DNA of 64,000 nucleotides from Longicatena caecimuris. Its GTDB lineage: Bacteria; Bacillota_I; Bacilli_A; Erysipelotrichales; Erysipelotrichaceae. A model generated the notes under the pieces. That model saw only the letters and a list, made by a program, of their open reading frames with translations, had not been told where the DNA came from and ran no database searches. Where the stretch lies: NCBI RefSeq assembly GCF_004341945.1, contig NZ_SMBP01000017.1:1-64000 (forward strand). Direction: 5' to 3'. This document shows positions 4,616 through 37,304 of the stretch, in pieces; position 1 is the stretch's first letter, and the number at the start of each line of letters is the position of its first letter. The translations under genes and the position numbers were made by a program.

Positions 4616-4696
4616 ATGAGAAAAGCTTTAAACATTATCGGAACTGCACTATGTGTAGTATTCTTCGGCTACAGCGAAGAGAAATTGTGTAAGTAA
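4616..4696 (+). CDS. Small hydrophobic peptide, 26 residues
   Basis: A 26-codon frame opening MRKALNIIGTALCVVFFGYS and ending with four charged residues among its last six. AGGAGG, a near-perfect ribosome binding site, lies 8 bases before the ATG. The peptide has a basic start, one hydrophobic stretch of about 14 residues and a charged tail, so it could be a single-span membrane peptide. It is the only rightward gene between dbpA and the MATE gene and is followed by a hairpin terminator (4722-4766). No homologue is recognised. It may be a membrane micropeptide, a toxin-like peptide or a peptide signal; the sequence does not decide. Confidence 0.55.
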   Translation: MRKALNIIGTALCVVFFGYSEEKLCK

Positions 4697-4721
4697 GATA
4701 ACCTTCCCTATGAATACAAAA

Positions 4722-4766
4722 AAAGAATACGAGTTCCCTGCATCACCAACAGTTGTCGTATTCTTT
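4722..4766. terminator. Bidirectional terminator between the micropeptide and MATE genes
   Basis: An 11-bp perfect stem (4722-4732 with 4756-4766) spans a 23-base loop. The minus-strand side is followed by T-rich sequence, serving the MATE gene; the plus side has TTCCTT and could serve the 26-residue gene. Confidence 0.65.
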
Positions 4767-4797
4767 CCTTCTTACTTCTATAGAATCTATTTCATCC

Positions 4798-6150
4798 TTA
4801 TTTCGCAAAAGCTTTTTTACGCACTAGCAGGTAGCAAATAAGATGTGCACTGATGGTAAGCATCCAAGAAATAGGATAGGACACATATAAAGAAAACTGC
4901 GTATGCTCTACCTGAAAGATGGTAAAGATCCAAATGATTCGGAATAGACAAGCCCCAGCTAACGATACCAACATCGGCATGATTGAATATCCTATTCCTC
5001 GTAAACTTCCCACAAAAACATCCATAATACCACATAAGAAATAACTGGCACTTACCACGCTCAATCGTGCTATTCCATATTGTATGACTTCTTCACTGGA
5101 AGAATAGATACTTAATAATGGATGTCCCAGTAAAAATGCTCCTATTCCCATAAACAAACCGACAAAGGTAACAATGCCTAAACATTGCAACAGAATCTTA
5201 TCAATACGGTGGTATTGCTTAGCCCCATAATTCTGACTGGTAAAGCTAAGTGATGTCTGATATACGGCATTCATGGAAGTATACACAAAGCCTTCGATAT
5301 TGCTGGCAGCAGTGTTTCCTGCCATAACCACAGAGCCAAATGAGTTAATAGAAGATTGTATCAGCACATTGGAGATATTAAAGATAACTCCCTGTAAGCC
5401 GGCAGGAAGTCCTACCCGTAACATACCAAACAGCTTATCTTTATGGAAAGATAATTCCTTTAGCCGTAAATGCAAAACACCTTCTGATTTTTCTAAGCTT
5501 AGTAATATTAAACCAGCAGATATTGCCTGTGCAATAATTGTCGCAAGCGCAACACCGGCAACTCCCATATGTAAAACGATGACAAAAAACAAATTAAAAA
5601 TAACATTAACGACACCAGCAACTGTTAAGAAATAAAGCGGACGTTTGGTATCCCCTAAAGCTCGTAATAAAGCAGCTCCGAAATTATATACCATAAACGC
5701 CGGCATACCGATAAAGTAGATACGCATGTATAGCACAGAAAGCGATAAGACATCTTGTGGCGTTCCCATCATTTCCAGCAGAGGTCGTGCTAATAAAACT
5801 CCTGCTATGATCATAATCACACCACCCACAATAGCCGTTACCATTGCTGTATGGACCGTTTCTGATGCATTCTTATAATCTTGCGCGCCATAATAGCGGC
5901 CTAGTAAAACATTCGCTCCAACGGAAACACCAATAAACAGGTTGACTAACAGGTTAATCAGCGAACTGGTAGAACCAACCGCTGCTAAAGCATGGCTTCC
6001 GGTAAATCTTCCCACGACGATAATATCGGCTGCATTAAAGAGCAGTTGTAAAATACCTGATAAAATTAGTGGTATTGCGAAAACAATCAGTCGTGAGAAG
6101 AGTGGGCCATGACACATATCAATTTCATAACTTCTTCTCAATTCATTCAT
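4798..6150 (-). CDS. MATE family efflux transporter (first of three)
   Basis: A 450-residue polytopic membrane protein, about 12 predicted spans, of the multidrug and toxin extrusion family. The opening LIVFAIPLILSGILQLLFNA and the repeated FNAADIIVVGRF pattern are typical of the NorM/DinF-like branch. It would export cationic compounds using a Na+ or H+ gradient. I choose the ATG at 6150 because the upstream part of the open frame overlaps a strong -10 box (6172-6177), which would put the longer start outside the transcript. The SD-like AAAAGGG abuts this ATG, so a downstream start near residue 11 is possible. The substrate is not predictable. Confidence 0.85.
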   Translation of the reverse strand: MNELRRSYEIDMCHGPLFSRLIVFAIPLILSGILQLLFNAADIIVVGRFTGSHALAAVGSTSSLINLLVNLFIGVSVGANVLLGRYYGAQDYKNASETVHTAMVTAIVGGVIMIIAGVLLARPLLEMMGTPQDVLSLSVLYMRIYFIGMPAFMVYNFGAALLRALGDTKRPLYFLTVAGVVNVIFNLFFVIVLHMGVAGVALATIIAQAISAGLILLSLEKSEGVLHLRLKELSFHKDKLFGMLRVGLPAGLQGVIFNISNVLIQSSINSFGSVVMAGNTAASNIEGFVYTSMNAVYQTSLSFTSQNYGAKQYHRIDKILLQCLGIVTFVGLFMGIGAFLLGHPLLSIYSSSEEVIQYGIARLSVVSASYFLCGIMDVFVGSLRGIGYSIMPMLVSLAGACLFRIIWIFTIFQVEHTQFSLYVSYPISWMLTISAHLICYLLVRKKAFAK

Positions 6151-6180: not shown

Positions 6181-6386
6181 AGTTATCTTTCGCTTGAACA
6201 TAGTAGAATTTCTGAATTTTTTGTAATTTAAAAGCGTACAGAAAGGAATGCGGGAGATTATAAATAAATATGGAAGAACATTGAGGAGAAATTATAAAAA
6301 AATTGCCGCTCTGTGAACTTGTTATGGAAAATCGTTTAATAAAACCCCTTTGTATAAATTCTTCCGTTGTTATCTAAACCCAATAG

Positions 6387-6415
6387 TTGAAAATTCTCTT
6401 ACCTGCCTGTATAAT
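6387..6415 (+). promoter_or_regulatory. Sigma-A type promoter of the nucleoside deoxyribosyltransferase gene
   Basis: TTGAAA (6387-6392) and TATAAT (6410-6415) are separated by exactly 17 bases, about 30 bases before the ATG. The match to the vegetative consensus is close. Confidence 0.8.
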
Positions 6416-6443
6416 CCTAATAGATGTAAAGGAGAATATATAT

Positions 6444-6899
6444 ATGTTAAAAGTTTATGTTGCCGGTTCCTTGTTTAATGAGGCAGAAGTCGCACAGCGT
6501 AAAAAAGAAGGGGAAATCTTAAGAGCAACTTTTCCACAGTTGGATATCTTTAATCCGATTGACCAACCATTTAATGAGAATAAGCAGTCGCTTCCAACAC
6601 CTGAAGAAATTTATGATGGTGACACAAAAGCTGTCGAAGACTGTGATATCTTTATTGCAGATCTAACAAATGAAGATGCTGGTGTTATGGTAGAATTAGG
6701 AATTGCCATAAAATCACATACAAAAATCATCATTGGGATTAACAGTGATATCCGTTTGCAGTCAGCGAATCGCTATGATATCCCTACTTACGGCATGAAT
6801 CATTATGTTCTTGGGGCAATTTTGAAGCATGGCTATTTTGTGAGAAGTTTTGATGAAGCTGTCGAAACCTTAAAAACGGCACTTGAGAATATTATATAG
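6444..6899 (+). CDS. Nucleoside 2-deoxyribosyltransferase
   Basis: A 151-residue cytosolic enzyme of the nucleoside 2-deoxyribosyltransferase family, which moves the deoxyribose between purine and pyrimidine bases in nucleoside salvage. The N-terminal VYVAGSLFN, the ADLTNEDAG segment and the VMVELGIA motif carrying the nucleophilic glutamate are visible. The start at 6444 has AAAGGAG 7 bases upstream; the earlier in-frame ATG falls inside the promoter. Its length matches the small single-domain family members. It is transcribed alone, opposite to its neighbours, from a strong promoter. Confidence 0.88.
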   Translation: MLKVYVAGSLFNEAEVAQRKKEGEILRATFPQLDIFNPIDQPFNENKQSLPTPEEIYDGDTKAVEDCDIFIADLTNEDAGVMVELGIAIKSHTKIIIGINSDIRLQSANRYDIPTYGMNHYVLGAILKHGYFVRSFDEAVETLKTALENII

Positions 6900-7372
6900 A
6901 TTATGGTTTTCCAATCATAAAATTGTTTCTAAATGATAATTTTTCTTTAGCTGTAAAGCTATTGATTGATCATCGTCTTTTATGCTTTTATGTTTTTTTC
7001 TTTATTAATAGGCGAGATGTTCCTTCACTTTTCTAAACTGTTATGAAATTCATATGCATCCTAGCATTTACAAGTTTTGTGATGAAAACGATAGTATTGT
7101 AAAGCAACTTGCTTATTACTTAATTTTTGAGATTAATTTTAGACCAAAAGCCGTTTTTCTACTAACGGTTTTTTTTGCCTGTGTCCATTTACTTTTTCGT
7201 TATCAACATAAAGCTTTACATTGCTTCATATACCTTCTAAGCTTCAGCTTATACTCCATTTTGATATTCTTACAGTTTATAAATAGAAGTTCATTACGTT
7301 CCAATAATATAGACGTTTTAATTTGCCGTTTCTTGACCTTATCTTTCCATTGCTGAAAGTTTTGTTAATACA
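6900..7372. other. Gene-free stretch
   Basis: I see no credible gene here. Open frames present have no ribosome binding site and unusual hydrophobic composition. One terminator-like hairpin (CCGTT at 7151-7155 with AACGG at 7164-7168, followed by eight T on the plus strand) lies in the middle. Confidence 0.5.
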
Positions 7373-32822: not shown

Positions 32823-34157
32823 TTAGATCAACATACGCTCTTTTTTCTTAAGGTCTCGGTAAAAGAATATAAAGAGAAAAGGTCCCATCAATGACCAGGC
32901 AATTGGCTCCGCAAAACATACACCGGTATAGCCGCTAAAAGGTATCAAAGCAAAGGTTGCAATAATCTTAACGCCCATTTCAATACAGCTGGATACAATC
33001 GGACTTCGCCCATTGCCAAGCCCCTGCAAACCATTACGATAAATAAATAAGATCGCAAGGATGAAATAAAATACACTGCTGATTCTGGTATAATAAGCCG
33101 CTAGTGAAACAACCTGTGTCTGTTGCTTATTGACAAGGAAGCCAATAAAGAAATCAATGCATGTAAAGGATAATAAGATGACGATACCTACCCAACCAAA
33201 GCTTATCCATATACTTTTTTTCATACCTTCTCGGATTCGATGATACTGTTTAGCACCTAAGTTTTGTGAAACAAAGGTTGTAACAGCAATGGCAATGGAA
33301 ATCAGTGGCTGCATAAACATCTCCACAATTTTGCGTGCTGCCACATGTGCCGCAATGGTCATTTCTCCCAGACTGTTCACTGCACTCTGTAAGACTACTG
33401 AACCGATGGATACAATGGAATTCATAAGCCCCATGGAAATCCCCATAGACATTTGTTTCAGAAAAACTTCTCTTTCTACATGACATTCTTCTTTTTTCAA
33501 GAAAAACATTGGATATTTCTTTCTCATATACAGGAAGCATAATACTACACTTAACAACTGTGCCAGTACGGTGGCATAGCCAGCTCCATTGATGCCTAAA
33601 TGCAATTGAGCAATAAAAAGATAATCCAAGGCGATGTTGGTTAAAGAGGCAATGATGAGAAAATATAATGGTGTCTTACTATCACCAATTGAGCGTAACA
33701 TACTTGCCATCATATTATATGCCATAGTAATAAACAATCCCATAAATATGATAGTTAAATACCCATCTGCCATCGAAAGAATACTTTTCGGTGTCTGAAG
33801 TAAGGAAAGAATTGGTGTCTTTAAAAGCATCGCGGCAAGCACGATAATTACCACACTGGACATACATAACAATATACATCCATAAGTTGCCATTTTCATG
33901 CCTTCCTGATCCCTAGCTCCGTAATACTGTGCTATCAATATTGATACTCCCATAGATACACCACTTACCAGACCAATGACCAAACCGGATAAGGAAGCAG
34001 TAGCTCCCATAGCAGCTAAGGCACGTACCCCTAAAATCTGTCCTACCATCATCGTATCTGCCATAGTATAAAATTGCTGAAAGATATTTCCCAAAAGGAC
34101 CGGAACAGCAAAACTCAACAACAATTTCATAACATTCCCTTGTGTCATATTCTTCAT
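32823..34157 (-). CDS. MATE family efflux transporter (second)
   Basis: A 444-residue membrane protein of about 12 spans in two pseudo-symmetric halves. LLLSFAVPVLLGNIFQQFY, TMADTMMVG and the mid-protein TPLYFLIIASLTNIALDYLF are characteristic. It belongs to the same broad subgroup as the first MATE (4798) but is clearly diverged. The start at 34157 has GAGGTG upstream. It is monocistronic. Its substrate is unknown. Confidence 0.92.
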   Translation of the reverse strand: MKNMTQGNVMKLLLSFAVPVLLGNIFQQFYTMADTMMVGQILGVRALAAMGATASLSGLVIGLVSGVSMGVSILIAQYYGARDQEGMKMATYGCILLCMSSVVIIVLAAMLLKTPILSLLQTPKSILSMADGYLTIIFMGLFITMAYNMMASMLRSIGDSKTPLYFLIIASLTNIALDYLFIAQLHLGINGAGYATVLAQLLSVVLCFLYMRKKYPMFFLKKEECHVEREVFLKQMSMGISMGLMNSIVSIGSVVLQSAVNSLGEMTIAAHVAARKIVEMFMQPLISIAIAVTTFVSQNLGAKQYHRIREGMKKSIWISFGWVGIVILLSFTCIDFFIGFLVNKQQTQVVSLAAYYTRISSVFYFILAILFIYRNGLQGLGNGRSPIVSSCIEMGVKIIATFALIPFSGYTGVCFAEPIAWSLMGPFLFIFFYRDLKKKERMLI

Positions 34158-34234
34158 AGCATCACCTCGCATTTACGCATTATTCTAACATAAATTAACT
34201 TGCGAAACAATGACTTTTATACGCATCCCCTTGA

Positions 34235-34990
34235 TCATATACAGATAGGGATATGTGTTAAAAGGAAGCGTATCAAAAAGGGGTAATCATTTTCTGCCAA
34301 CAATAGCATCACGGTTTTCATCGCTGTACTATCTAAAAAACAACCTTGTTTATTCGCCAAGAGAAGCATCGTATCACCAAAAGCGTGCGTTCCGATTGCC
34401 AGATGCCCATAAGCAACGATACCAAAGCTTACTTCAAAGCCAATGGAAATAACCCCGATACTATACATGCCAATAGCTAAAGTACCAACACTGATATAGC
34501 CTATAGCTAGCGCTCCTAAAGCATACACTCCGATTGCCAACACACCTAAACAAAAAAGGAAGCCAAAGCTTAATAGGCCAAAAGATAAAATACCAAAGCT
34601 CATCATGCCAAGCGATATCACCCCCACAGCTGTATTACCAATGGCAATGATGCCTTTCGCTATTCGTCGTTTTCCATTTCTGTTCCTTCCCAAACCAAGT
34701 TGTACAGCAAGCAAAGGAATCCCAAATACTTTGCAGGAAGAAGTATATTCACAACCTTTAAAAAAAGTACTTTTATCCTTACGCTGCTTAATTGGCATGC
34801 TATTCTCATTTATTTCCTCTGGGATGTGCAAAAGCTTAATCAACTTTGCCATTTGCTCTTCATTTGCTTTACCTAATCCAAGTTCCCATCTTCTGATGGT
34901 CCATGGTGTTACATTACATAATAAAGCAAGTTCTTCATAACTCAGTTTTTGTGCAATACGATAAGCCCTTAATCTTTTCTTAAATGCCAT
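34235..34990 (-). CDS. XRE regulator fused to a 5-residue hydrophobic repeat domain
   Basis: A 251-residue protein. Residues 1-65 are a Cro/CI-type helix-turn-helix (KLSYEELALLCNVTPWTIRR). After a basic linker, residues about 115-220 consist of roughly twenty 5-residue units of the form x-x-(S/A)-(I/L/F/V)-G, such as GVLAIGVYALGALAIG. The strict glycine every fifth residue points to a regular solenoid, or membrane helices packed through glycine; the sequence alone does not decide. AAGGAGG lies 7 bases before the ATG. Single gene; targets unknown. Confidence 0.75.
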   Translation of the reverse strand: MAFKKRLRAYRIAQKLSYEELALLCNVTPWTIRRWELGLGKANEEQMAKLIKLLHIPEEINENSMPIKQRKDKSTFFKGCEYTSSCKVFGIPLLAVQLGLGRNRNGKRRIAKGIIAIGNTAVGVISLGMMSFGILSFGLLSFGFLFCLGVLAIGVYALGALAIGYISVGTLAIGMYSIGVISIGFEVSFGIVAYGHLAIGTHAFGDTMLLLANKQGCFLDSTAMKTVMLLLAENDYPFLIRFLLTHIPICI

Positions 34991-35243
34991 CCATTTCCCT
35001 CCTTTTCTATCAAGGAAACACATAACTCCTATTTCATTAAATAAAGCACTACGATTTACACGCTTATTTCATATCTGTTTTAAAGAGTATCATTTAAGTT
35101 TTACAACCTATGGCTATTGATAGTAACTATAAAATAAACCTTATTCATTTATTATGATACTAGCATAAATGATCGATTAGGAACAGCCTTTTGCGATCCT
35201 TATCCTATCCTCTTATTTGTTTTCACCCTTATGAATAAGGAAA

Positions 35244-35265
35244 GGAAGCCAATGATTTGGCTTCC
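35244..35265 (-). terminator. Terminator of the tilS-hpt-ftsH operon
   Basis: A perfect 9-bp stem GGAAGCCAA/TTGGCTTCC with a TGAT loop lies just past ftsH, followed on the minus strand by TTTCCTTATTC. Confidence 0.7.
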
Positions 35266-35270
35266 CATTG

Positions 35271-37304
35271 TTATTCTTCACTGTCGTGTTTCGTTAATTC
35301 TTTTAACGCTTCTTCAAAACTCTTCTGCGCTTTTTGTTTTTCTTCTTCTCGCTTCAAAGAAGTTTCATTATCTTCTGCTTCCTGCGTTGGATTTTCAGCT
35401 TCCGCCTGAGCTTGCGCAGAACGTTCTTCTTCTCTTTCTGCTTCTATACGGGCTTGTTCTTTCCGCTGTTCCTGTTCCGGAGAAGTCAATTTACCATAAG
35501 TCATTAAATTATTAATCTGCTCACTTGTAATGGTTTCTTCTTCAATCAGATTTTCCGCAATCAATGTTAACAGATCTTTATTGTCCTCAATCAGTTTCTT
35601 TGCCTGATCATAACACTCATTAATGATCTTCCGGATTTCCTTATCAATTTCATAAGCAATCTCTCCGGAATAATTACTTCCGCTGCCATAATCTCTTCCT
35701 AAGAAAACATTTCCTGTACCATCATCATATTGAATAGGTCCAAGGGAAGACATACCCCAACTTCTTACCATTGCTTTCGCAATCTTTGTCGCCTTTTGAA
35801 TATCATTGCTAGCGCCGGCAGAAATTTCATTAAACATGACTTCTTCGGCCACACGACCACCCATTAATCCAGTAATCTGGCTCATAAAATCAGCTTTTGT
35901 CGGGAACAATTTTTCTTCCTTCGGTGTCATGAGGTTATAGCCACCGGCTTCTCCACGTGGAATAATCGTTACTTTTTCTACCTTATCGGCATCCTCAAGT
36001 TTCAGACCAATTACCGCATGCCCTGCCTCATGATAAGCTACCAGACGTTTCTCTTTCTCCGTATACTTCTTTGATTTCTTCGCCGGACCCATCATTACAC
36101 GGTCGATAGCTTCATCTAAATCTTCCATCGTAATCATCTTACGTTTATCACGAACGGCCAAAATGGCACCTTCATTTAACACGTTTTCCAAATCCGCACC
36201 AGAGAATCCCGGAGTACGTTTCGCCAAAGACTCTAAAGAAATATCCTTTGCCAATTTCTTATTGCGGGCATGTACCTTTAAGATTTCATAACGGCCTTTC
36301 TTATCCGGAAGATTAACCGTAATCTGGCGGTCAAAACGTCCGCTTCGTAATAAGGCAGGATCTAAGACATCCGGGCGATTCGTTGCGGCAATAATAACGA
36401 TACCTTTATTTTCACCCATACCATCCATCTCTACCAACAGCTGGTTTAAGGTTTGTTCACGTTCATCGTTTCCACCGCCCATACCGGCTCCACGCTGGCG
36501 TCCAACCGCATCAATTTCATCAATAAAGACGATACATGGTGCGTGTTGTTGAGCTTTTTTAAACATGTCACGCACACGGCTAGCACCGGTACCGACAAAC
36601 ATTTCCACAAAGTCAGATCCACTGATCGAGAAGAAAGGCACATCTGCTTCTCCGGCCACCGCTTTCGCCAACAAAGTCTTACCAGTACCCGGAGGGCCAA
36701 CCATCAGCATCCCCTTAGGAATACGAGCACCCATATCGGTAAAGCGTTTTGGGTCTTTCAAGTAATCAATGATTTCCTTCACTTCTTCTTTTTCTTCATC
36801 ACATCCGGCAACATCCTTAAAACGCACTTTAATGCTGCTTTCTATCTTCGCCCTGGATTTACTAAATTCAAAGGCCTTGTTATTGCCTCCTGCATTCATA
36901 CGAGAGAACAGGAAGATTGCTGCTCCACCAAGAATCAAGAAAGGCAATACGCTTTTAAGGAAAACTTCTAATACACTTTCCTTATTTGCATCTAATACAT
37001 TCACTTTTGTCTTCTTATTCTTTTCAAATAATTCACTCAGCCATTTTACATTGTCATCCGTGCGTGGCACACTGACTGTAAAACTCTTCGTGCTATCGCC
37101 ATTCTGATAGGTTCCTCTGACTCCGATGACGGTAGTACCCATAGACATATTGACTTCTTTAAATGATAAATTTTCAGCTTGCGCCGCAAATTCATTATAA
37201 TTGAACTCTTTTGTGTTACTACCATTTCCAAATGTAATCAGAAGGACCATAATAGAAATAACAAGAATATAAGGCAACAGACTTATTACCTTTTTATTGT
37301 TCAT
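35271..37304 (-). CDS. ftsH: ATP-dependent zinc metalloprotease FtsH
   Basis: A 677-residue membrane protease that degrades unassembled or damaged membrane and regulatory proteins. Two membrane spans (about 8-25 and 110-130) flank an extracytoplasmic domain. The AAA domain shows Walker [10 protein letters not shown] (about 203-211) and the second region of homology; HEAGH (about 427-431) binds zinc. The pore segment FVEMFVGTG is slightly unusual (family VGVGA). The C-terminal 60 residues are a charged, glutamate-rich tail. It is the last gene of the tilS-hpt-ftsH operon, an order conserved in Firmicutes. Confidence 0.98.

Follow-up and report, generated by a model that had tools for sequence, protein, structure and literature searches.

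A putative regulator with a nearly uncharged five-residue repeat predicted to fold as a thin beta-roll

Organization of the locus

The window, i.e. the whole 64,000-nucleotide stretch of DNA that was analysed, carries on its minus strand, at 34235-34990, a gene for a protein of 251 amino acids in which an XRE-type helix-turn-helix (HTH) is followed by an N-cap, a predicted beta-solenoid and two C-terminal helices; all the features described in this section lie on the same strand. In the translation of this open reading frame (ORF), the ATG is at 34990 and the stop codon ends at 34235. Starting instead from another in-frame ATG, at 35023, would lengthen the protein by 11 amino acids, but the start at 34990 is preferred because it is preceded by AGGAGG. 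A sequence-only reading of the locus had noticed an unusual glycine-ended repeat behind an HTH, and both elements were confirmed. The XRE/Cro-C1 HTH occupies residues 7-59 (34814-34972), where it matches Pfam HTH_3 (E 5.2e-10, 39.6 bits for a cut-off of 23) and forms four helices in the model; HTH_3 was matched in 54 of 54 relatives as well. A flexible linker, residues 60-79 (34754-34813), has pLDDT values below 50 at residues 59-61 and 63-75. It leads to the basic N-cap, residues 80-112 (34655-34753), defined from alignments A1 and A2 by the motif YEYxSK....G(L/I)PLVHI..G.G....AK. The repeat itself covers residues 113-205 (34376-34654) with 18 xx(A/S)(hydrophobic)G units, which we interpret as nine two-strand coils; its units 1-14, residues 113-184 (34439-34654), make up a part that is charge-free, as judged from the residue composition in the relatives. 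The protein ends with a pair of helices in the AlphaFold2 models, residues 221-250 (34241-34330), in which a proline is conserved and a tryptophan is present in most relatives. Directly downstream, 62 bases after the regulator stop, lies a MATE efflux gene (32823-34172; Pfam MatE, E 1.2e-57), a possible operon partner in this lineage.

A glycine-ended repeat with a ten-residue coil

The repeat was initially described as about twenty glycine-ended units with a strict period of five. The repeat stood, and the count came down to 18; the strict period holds for 16 units, the two others (G143-L148 and G184-F189) being six residues long. Of 17 exact G....G windows, 16 have alanine or serine at position 3 of the unit. 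Pairs of glycines five residues apart number 16 within 98 residues, for a mean of 3.3 upon shuffling, and since 16 was never reached when these residues were shuffled 100,000 times, the period is not due to chance. The repeat is far from perfect: the 16 units compared are all distinct, with a mean identity of 0.40.

Two observations made on the relatives point to a coil of ten residues, i.e. two five-residue units. Glycines at unit position 1 are coupled at a spacing of 10 (73 observed for 31.9 expected, a value reached by 0 of 2000 permutations) and of 20 (29 for 18.4; 3 of 2000 permutations), and depleted at spacings of 5 and 15, in statistics which ignore the kinship among the sequences. 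Repeat number was also compared among homologues, as had been suggested, and the length differences proved to be mostly steps of 10: the distance from G113 to G190 is 77-78, 87-88 or 97-98 residues in 64 of 73 rows, and 89-90 in the nine others. This evidence for the ten-residue coil does not depend on AlphaFold.

Predicted fold

For a single chain, AlphaFold2 gave a mean pLDDT of 87.2 for the protein with a 54-sequence alignment (A1), and of 90.3, with a pTM of 0.77, for the domain alone with 73 sequences. Residues 110-194 are continuously in strand in both models, with pLDDT values of 93-97 over the repeat. The repeat is thus predicted to fold as a very thin, two-sheeted beta-roll with two five-residue strands per coil, in which the alanine or serine of position 3 would point inside and the glycines would sit at the turns; the in/out assignment is deduced from substitutions. 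Of the two folds put forward by the sequence-only reading, the solenoid was borne out, by the two beta models together with the coil length read from sequence. Ordinary transmembrane helices, which that reading had named as the outcome that would speak against it, were not predicted. The glycine zipper is a helix-packing motif, and it fits poorly with models that are both beta rather than helical.

The best fold matches were the left-handed parallel beta-roll heads of trimeric autotransporter adhesins. With VIA-align, the predicted model matched the YadA head (1p9h) with a Z of 9.8 (116 residues aligned, rmsd 5.9, 29% identity) and BoaA (3s6l) with a Z of 9.0, the next row being at 2.6; rmsd values ranged from 5.9 to 6.5 across the YadA and BoaA matches. 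Foldseek comparison of both models with the PDB returned nothing at E ≤0.001, and a viral Foldseek match at E 7.1e-4 was set aside (a herpesvirus fragment, rmsd 14, 3% identity). No solved structure was related by sequence to the protein or to profile A2. It is also reported that AlphaFold2, when given perfect repeats, predicts with confidence beta-solenoids that are unrealistic and in some cases have hydrophobic surfaces, and that AlphaFold3 and multimer prediction are less biased (PMC11795689). Because of this bias the model was not relied upon alone; here, the units are imperfect and homologues were used.

The YadA motif SVAIG resembles the unit found here, i.e. small, hydrophobic, Ala, hydrophobic, Gly. 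There are clear differences, however. The YadA-type layer has about 14 residues (PMC9543794) instead of ten, and the exterior of the YadA-type BpaA is described as hydrophilic (PMC2942831), whereas the middle of the present solenoid is free of charge. YadA heads are extracellular, while this solenoid is joined to a DNA-binding domain. A secreted passenger with a membrane anchor domain, which is a YadA trait, was not recognized, the HTH coming first and no anchor family being matched, and none of the Pfam YadA models matches the domain. Pentapeptide-repeat proteins (PF00805, PF01469) share with it a five-residue unit and a solenoid, but have a four-sided coil in place of the two-strand coil that we propose. 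Pfam searches gave no PF00805 match in the protein or its relatives; Pentapeptide_2 (PF01469) scored 10.8 bits in the protein, for a cut-off of 26.4, and 5 of 73 relatives matched it at E ≤0.01. The GLTT repeat (PF01744) was matched at this threshold by 25 of the 73 relatives, not including the protein itself, and this likely reflects composition.

Distribution of charged and hydrophobic residues

When the first 70 residues of the solenoid are taken from 79 relatives, only 8 of 5,530 (0.14%) are D, E, K or R. The corresponding figure is 85 of 460 (18.5%) in ten PF00805 pentapeptide controls, the longest uncharged run of which is 11-22 residues; the controls came from 12 loci, two of which had no repeat according to the search pattern. 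Uninterrupted stretches of 60 uncharged residues or longer are present in 75 of 79 family ORFs as against 2 of 545 other ORFs from the same loci, the 79 ORFs of this count having been chosen by another pattern and not being exactly those of the charge count. In 77 of 79 rows the charge-free run extends over 69 to 102 residues (7-10 coils, ∼33-49 Å), and it is 42 and 62 residues long in the two others. For a beta-roll the layer spacing is given as 4.8 Å (PMC9543794); units 3-14 would then constitute six coils, or ∼29 Å, and seven coils (34 Å) would be found in the 51 of 73 rows which have an extra coil. The suggestion that the repeat is a membrane domain is supported indirectly, by the near-total lack of charge.

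Composition was also examined unit by unit. Position 3 is alanine or serine throughout the solenoid, and we take it as inside because this is kept in all units. In odd units, positions 2 and 4 are hydrophobic from one end to the other; in even units they stay hydrophobic from unit 4 to unit 14 and become partly polar at the C-terminal end (0.38). Position 1 becomes polar at both ends of the solenoid. The hydrophobic positions that face the core of a YadA-type roll are described as 5 and 7 of the layer, with A6 and G8 conserved (PMC9543794). These four positions map onto positions 2, 4, 3 and the glycine of our unit, and for that reason the odd-unit face looks like an oligomer face; the even-unit face looks suited to lipid contact in the middle and to water at the end. 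On the N-terminal side, the N-cap stretch (about residues 76-112) has a positive net charge in 79 of 79 relatives, and one above that of the tail in 78 of 79. Under the positive-inside rule, this is the charge wanted for an N-in anchor.

A family with two regulatory settings

Genome scanning found 123 relatives, of which 80 were kept, from Lachnospiraceae, Oscillospiraceae, Erysipelotrichales, Anaeroplasmatales, Clostridium and one Paenibacillaceae record. Of 84 repeat ORFs, L040, which contains X, and L072 and L096, which lack the PL motif, were not extracted, and L033 and L069, truncated at contig ends, were set aside, which gave the 79 relatives used above; alignments A1 and A2 contain 54 and 73 of them, respectively. 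Outside the HTH, the most conserved part of the 54 aligned proteins is the N-cap motif, which can be extended to YEYxSK....G(L/I)PLVHI..G.G....AKGIIAIGN. The protein of the window shares its N-terminal HTH_3 with XRE-family one-component regulators; its C-terminal domain matched no family in Pfam or NCBIfam.

Within the GTDB family of the window, 23 of 195 genomes have a match, but the repeat is covered in three only (G000, G006 and G020, the window's own genome being one of them), the remaining matches lying in or near the HTH. Profile A2, built on the domain, detected it in 13 of the 296 genomes searched for the class and in 15 of the 392 searched for the phylum. When 40 carrier genomes were searched whole, 37 had a single copy. 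G651 has two copies in tandem, G671 also has two, and G635 gave a second, weak match; two rows in G664 are pieces of one frame. Two related Anaerostipes frames (L070, 347-1024, and L081, 4857-5534) begin inside the HTH and may be pseudogenes, frameshifted genes or a short form. In another locus (L090, 4410-4970), a solenoid gene without HTH immediately precedes a complete XRE-solenoid gene. A phage or plasmid origin as the usual setting was discarded: searches with the protein or A2 confirmed no relative in viral contigs and none in phages, and plasmids yielded one record and no match for the HAAS-type domain. The only plasmid copy (L107, 4926-5576), on a conjugative plasmid of Pusillibacter faecalis, is located between a recombinase gene and pheT.

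The A2 searches of the class and the phylum together delivered 16 domain-bearing genomes: 12 with the XRE form, three with a HAAS or HAAS-like form and one, G206, with a decayed gene. In G230, G399 and G314, the N-cap and the solenoid follow a HAAS or HAAS-like region, and a PadR gene is directly upstream in all three intact loci of this type (L148, L149 and L150). HAAS is above the Pfam cut-off only in the G230 protein (L148, E 3e-8); the HAAS-like protein of G399 aligns to it (44%), and that of G314 aligns to the one of G399 (35%). The decayed HAAS-solenoid gene of G206 contains two in-frame stops (L120; L151, 4617-4796 and nearby). HAAS is said to occur as a rule in fusion with sensor domains that are multi-TM or intracellular, and fusions of HAAS to pentapeptide-repeat domains, classed as intracellular, have been described in Firmicutes (Ravi et al. 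2024, PMC11237479). The protein of the window has its N-cap and solenoid in common with the HAAS-PadR systems of these three loci, but it differs from them by its own XRE HTH and an extra C-terminal helix pair, and the Pfam search returned no HAAS row for it.

Possible modes of action

Our leading interpretation, on which confidence and doubt are nearly balanced, is that the protein is a one-component regulator, probably oligomeric, with a beta-roll that acts at the membrane as a sensor or an anchor. The odd-unit face would pack against partner subunits, like the SVAIG face in YadA heads, and the even-unit face would meet lipid through its hydrophobic middle six strands and water through its polar C-terminal end. 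The roll would thereby anchor the regulator in the cytoplasmic membrane, or keep it attached there, with the basic N-cap and the HTH in the cytoplasm, and a change in the membrane or in the oligomeric state might alter the pairing of the HTHs and so decide whether DNA is bound. That the repeat controls DNA binding, as had been proposed from the outset, is deduced from the fusion of the two domains.

A bolder form of the proposal, which we consider possible but doubtful, has a YadA-like beta-solenoid, probably oligomeric, lying in or spanning the cytoplasmic membrane, facing the lipid over roughly six to seven coils (∼29-34 Å) and a role as a sensor or anchor interchangeable between XRE and HAAS-PadR regulators. 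We know of no beta-solenoid that spans a cytoplasmic membrane, and our literature search found no paper on one. Against a membrane roll are the length of the charge-free run, which exceeds the bilayer core in some relatives, the intracellular classification of HAAS-fused pentapeptide repeats (PMC11237479) and the bias of AlphaFold2 for solenoids (PMC11795689). If the roll does lie in the membrane, it would go against the working rule of helical proteins in the cytoplasmic membrane; this would mean a non-helical class of inner-membrane protein, and a family of one-component regulators reading the membrane directly. The union of a regulator with a nearly uncharged membrane beta-coil would be unusual, if confirmed. 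Neither the XRE-solenoid version nor the idea of a membrane beta-roll was found in the mostly open-access literature, while the fusion of HAAS with a 'pentapeptide repeat' is already published.

A serious rival, though on balance also an unlikely one, is a soluble oligomer: the rolls would stack as trimers or larger assemblies that bury both hydrophobic faces and serve as a scaffold arraying cytoplasmic HTHs, with no membrane contact. The end-to-end hydrophobicity of the odd face speaks for it, as do the burial of the hydrophobic, core-facing side within the trimer of YadA-type heads (PMC2942831, PMC9543794), an N-terminal DNA-binding domain with no signal peptide seen, and the term intracellular used by Ravi et al. 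(PMC11237479) for HAAS-fused pentapeptide repeats. But a YadA-type trimer buries one face only, and the second face is here charge-free over six strands, whereas the outside of BpaA is reported to be hydrophilic (PMC2942831). Even as a soluble oligomer, the domain would be a shared module that has no name as yet and whose coil is very short, swapped between two types of regulators and carried by many gut Bacillota.

It is improbable that the domain is instead an alpha-helical membrane domain with about three transmembrane helices, the AlphaFold2 solenoid being an artefact of the bias already mentioned (PMC11795689). Its mean hydropathy over 19 residues, of up to 2.2, and an uncharged length that fits several transmembrane helices would suit such an arrangement, but a period of 5 with coupling at 10 does not agree with 3.6 residues per turn, there are no polar loops between the would-be helices, length changes occur mostly in tens, and the predictions were built on 54 and 73 sequences with imperfect units. 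Least probable of all is a soluble, peripheral solenoid that binds lipids or hydrophobic drugs on its hydrophobic face and in this way regulates efflux genes, for instance the neighbouring MATE gene, for although this gene is close by, is also downstream in G006, and a basic N-cap could touch lipid headgroups, both faces are hydrophobic rather than one forming a pocket, and MATE is absent from the downstream genes of the other loci (see below).

Genomic context and candidate target

If the protein is a membrane-linked regulator, as we favour, the adjacent MATE efflux gene would be its likely target in this lineage. The order tilS-hpt-ftsH-regulator-MATE (tilS, hpt and ftsH being named from their translations) is common to the window and G006, but MATE was found among none of the 72 downstream genes of the other family loci, and MATE orthologues in G051, G038 and G077 are located elsewhere, without the regulator. 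Across the family, the next downstream gene lies within 600 bases in 72 of 80 loci and is codirectional in 46. As any one such gene is shared by at most 4 loci, a conserved operon partner was ruled out and MATE is a local association only. Clustering of the neighbours in 83 loci brought out mainly broad families, the commonest being an ABC-ATPase-like cluster (16 loci) and a two-component-like pair (9-10 loci), both named from translations.

Upstream of the start, six related loci (L035, L045, L046, L079, L049 and L036) have a strongly conserved block, CAACTG(C/T)TGGTTGACAAATTTCCA, perhaps a promoter or an operator. A conserved TTGACA-like block is seen in the alignment of six related loci. 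Near the start of the gene in the window, short inverted repeats were not distinctive and no clear operator was found; a promoter scan gave 12 sites for 10.6 expected. A strong inverted repeat at 35234-35275, at the end of the ftsH-like gene, was interpreted as a bidirectional terminator. The closest MATE orthologue (74% identity), at 4618-5982 of locus L202 in G051, is followed by a PadR gene (6184-6516; Pfam E 4.3e-19) and a HAAS gene (6509-7000; E 6.6e-12), so that in a relative the same exporter stands beside another type of regulator.
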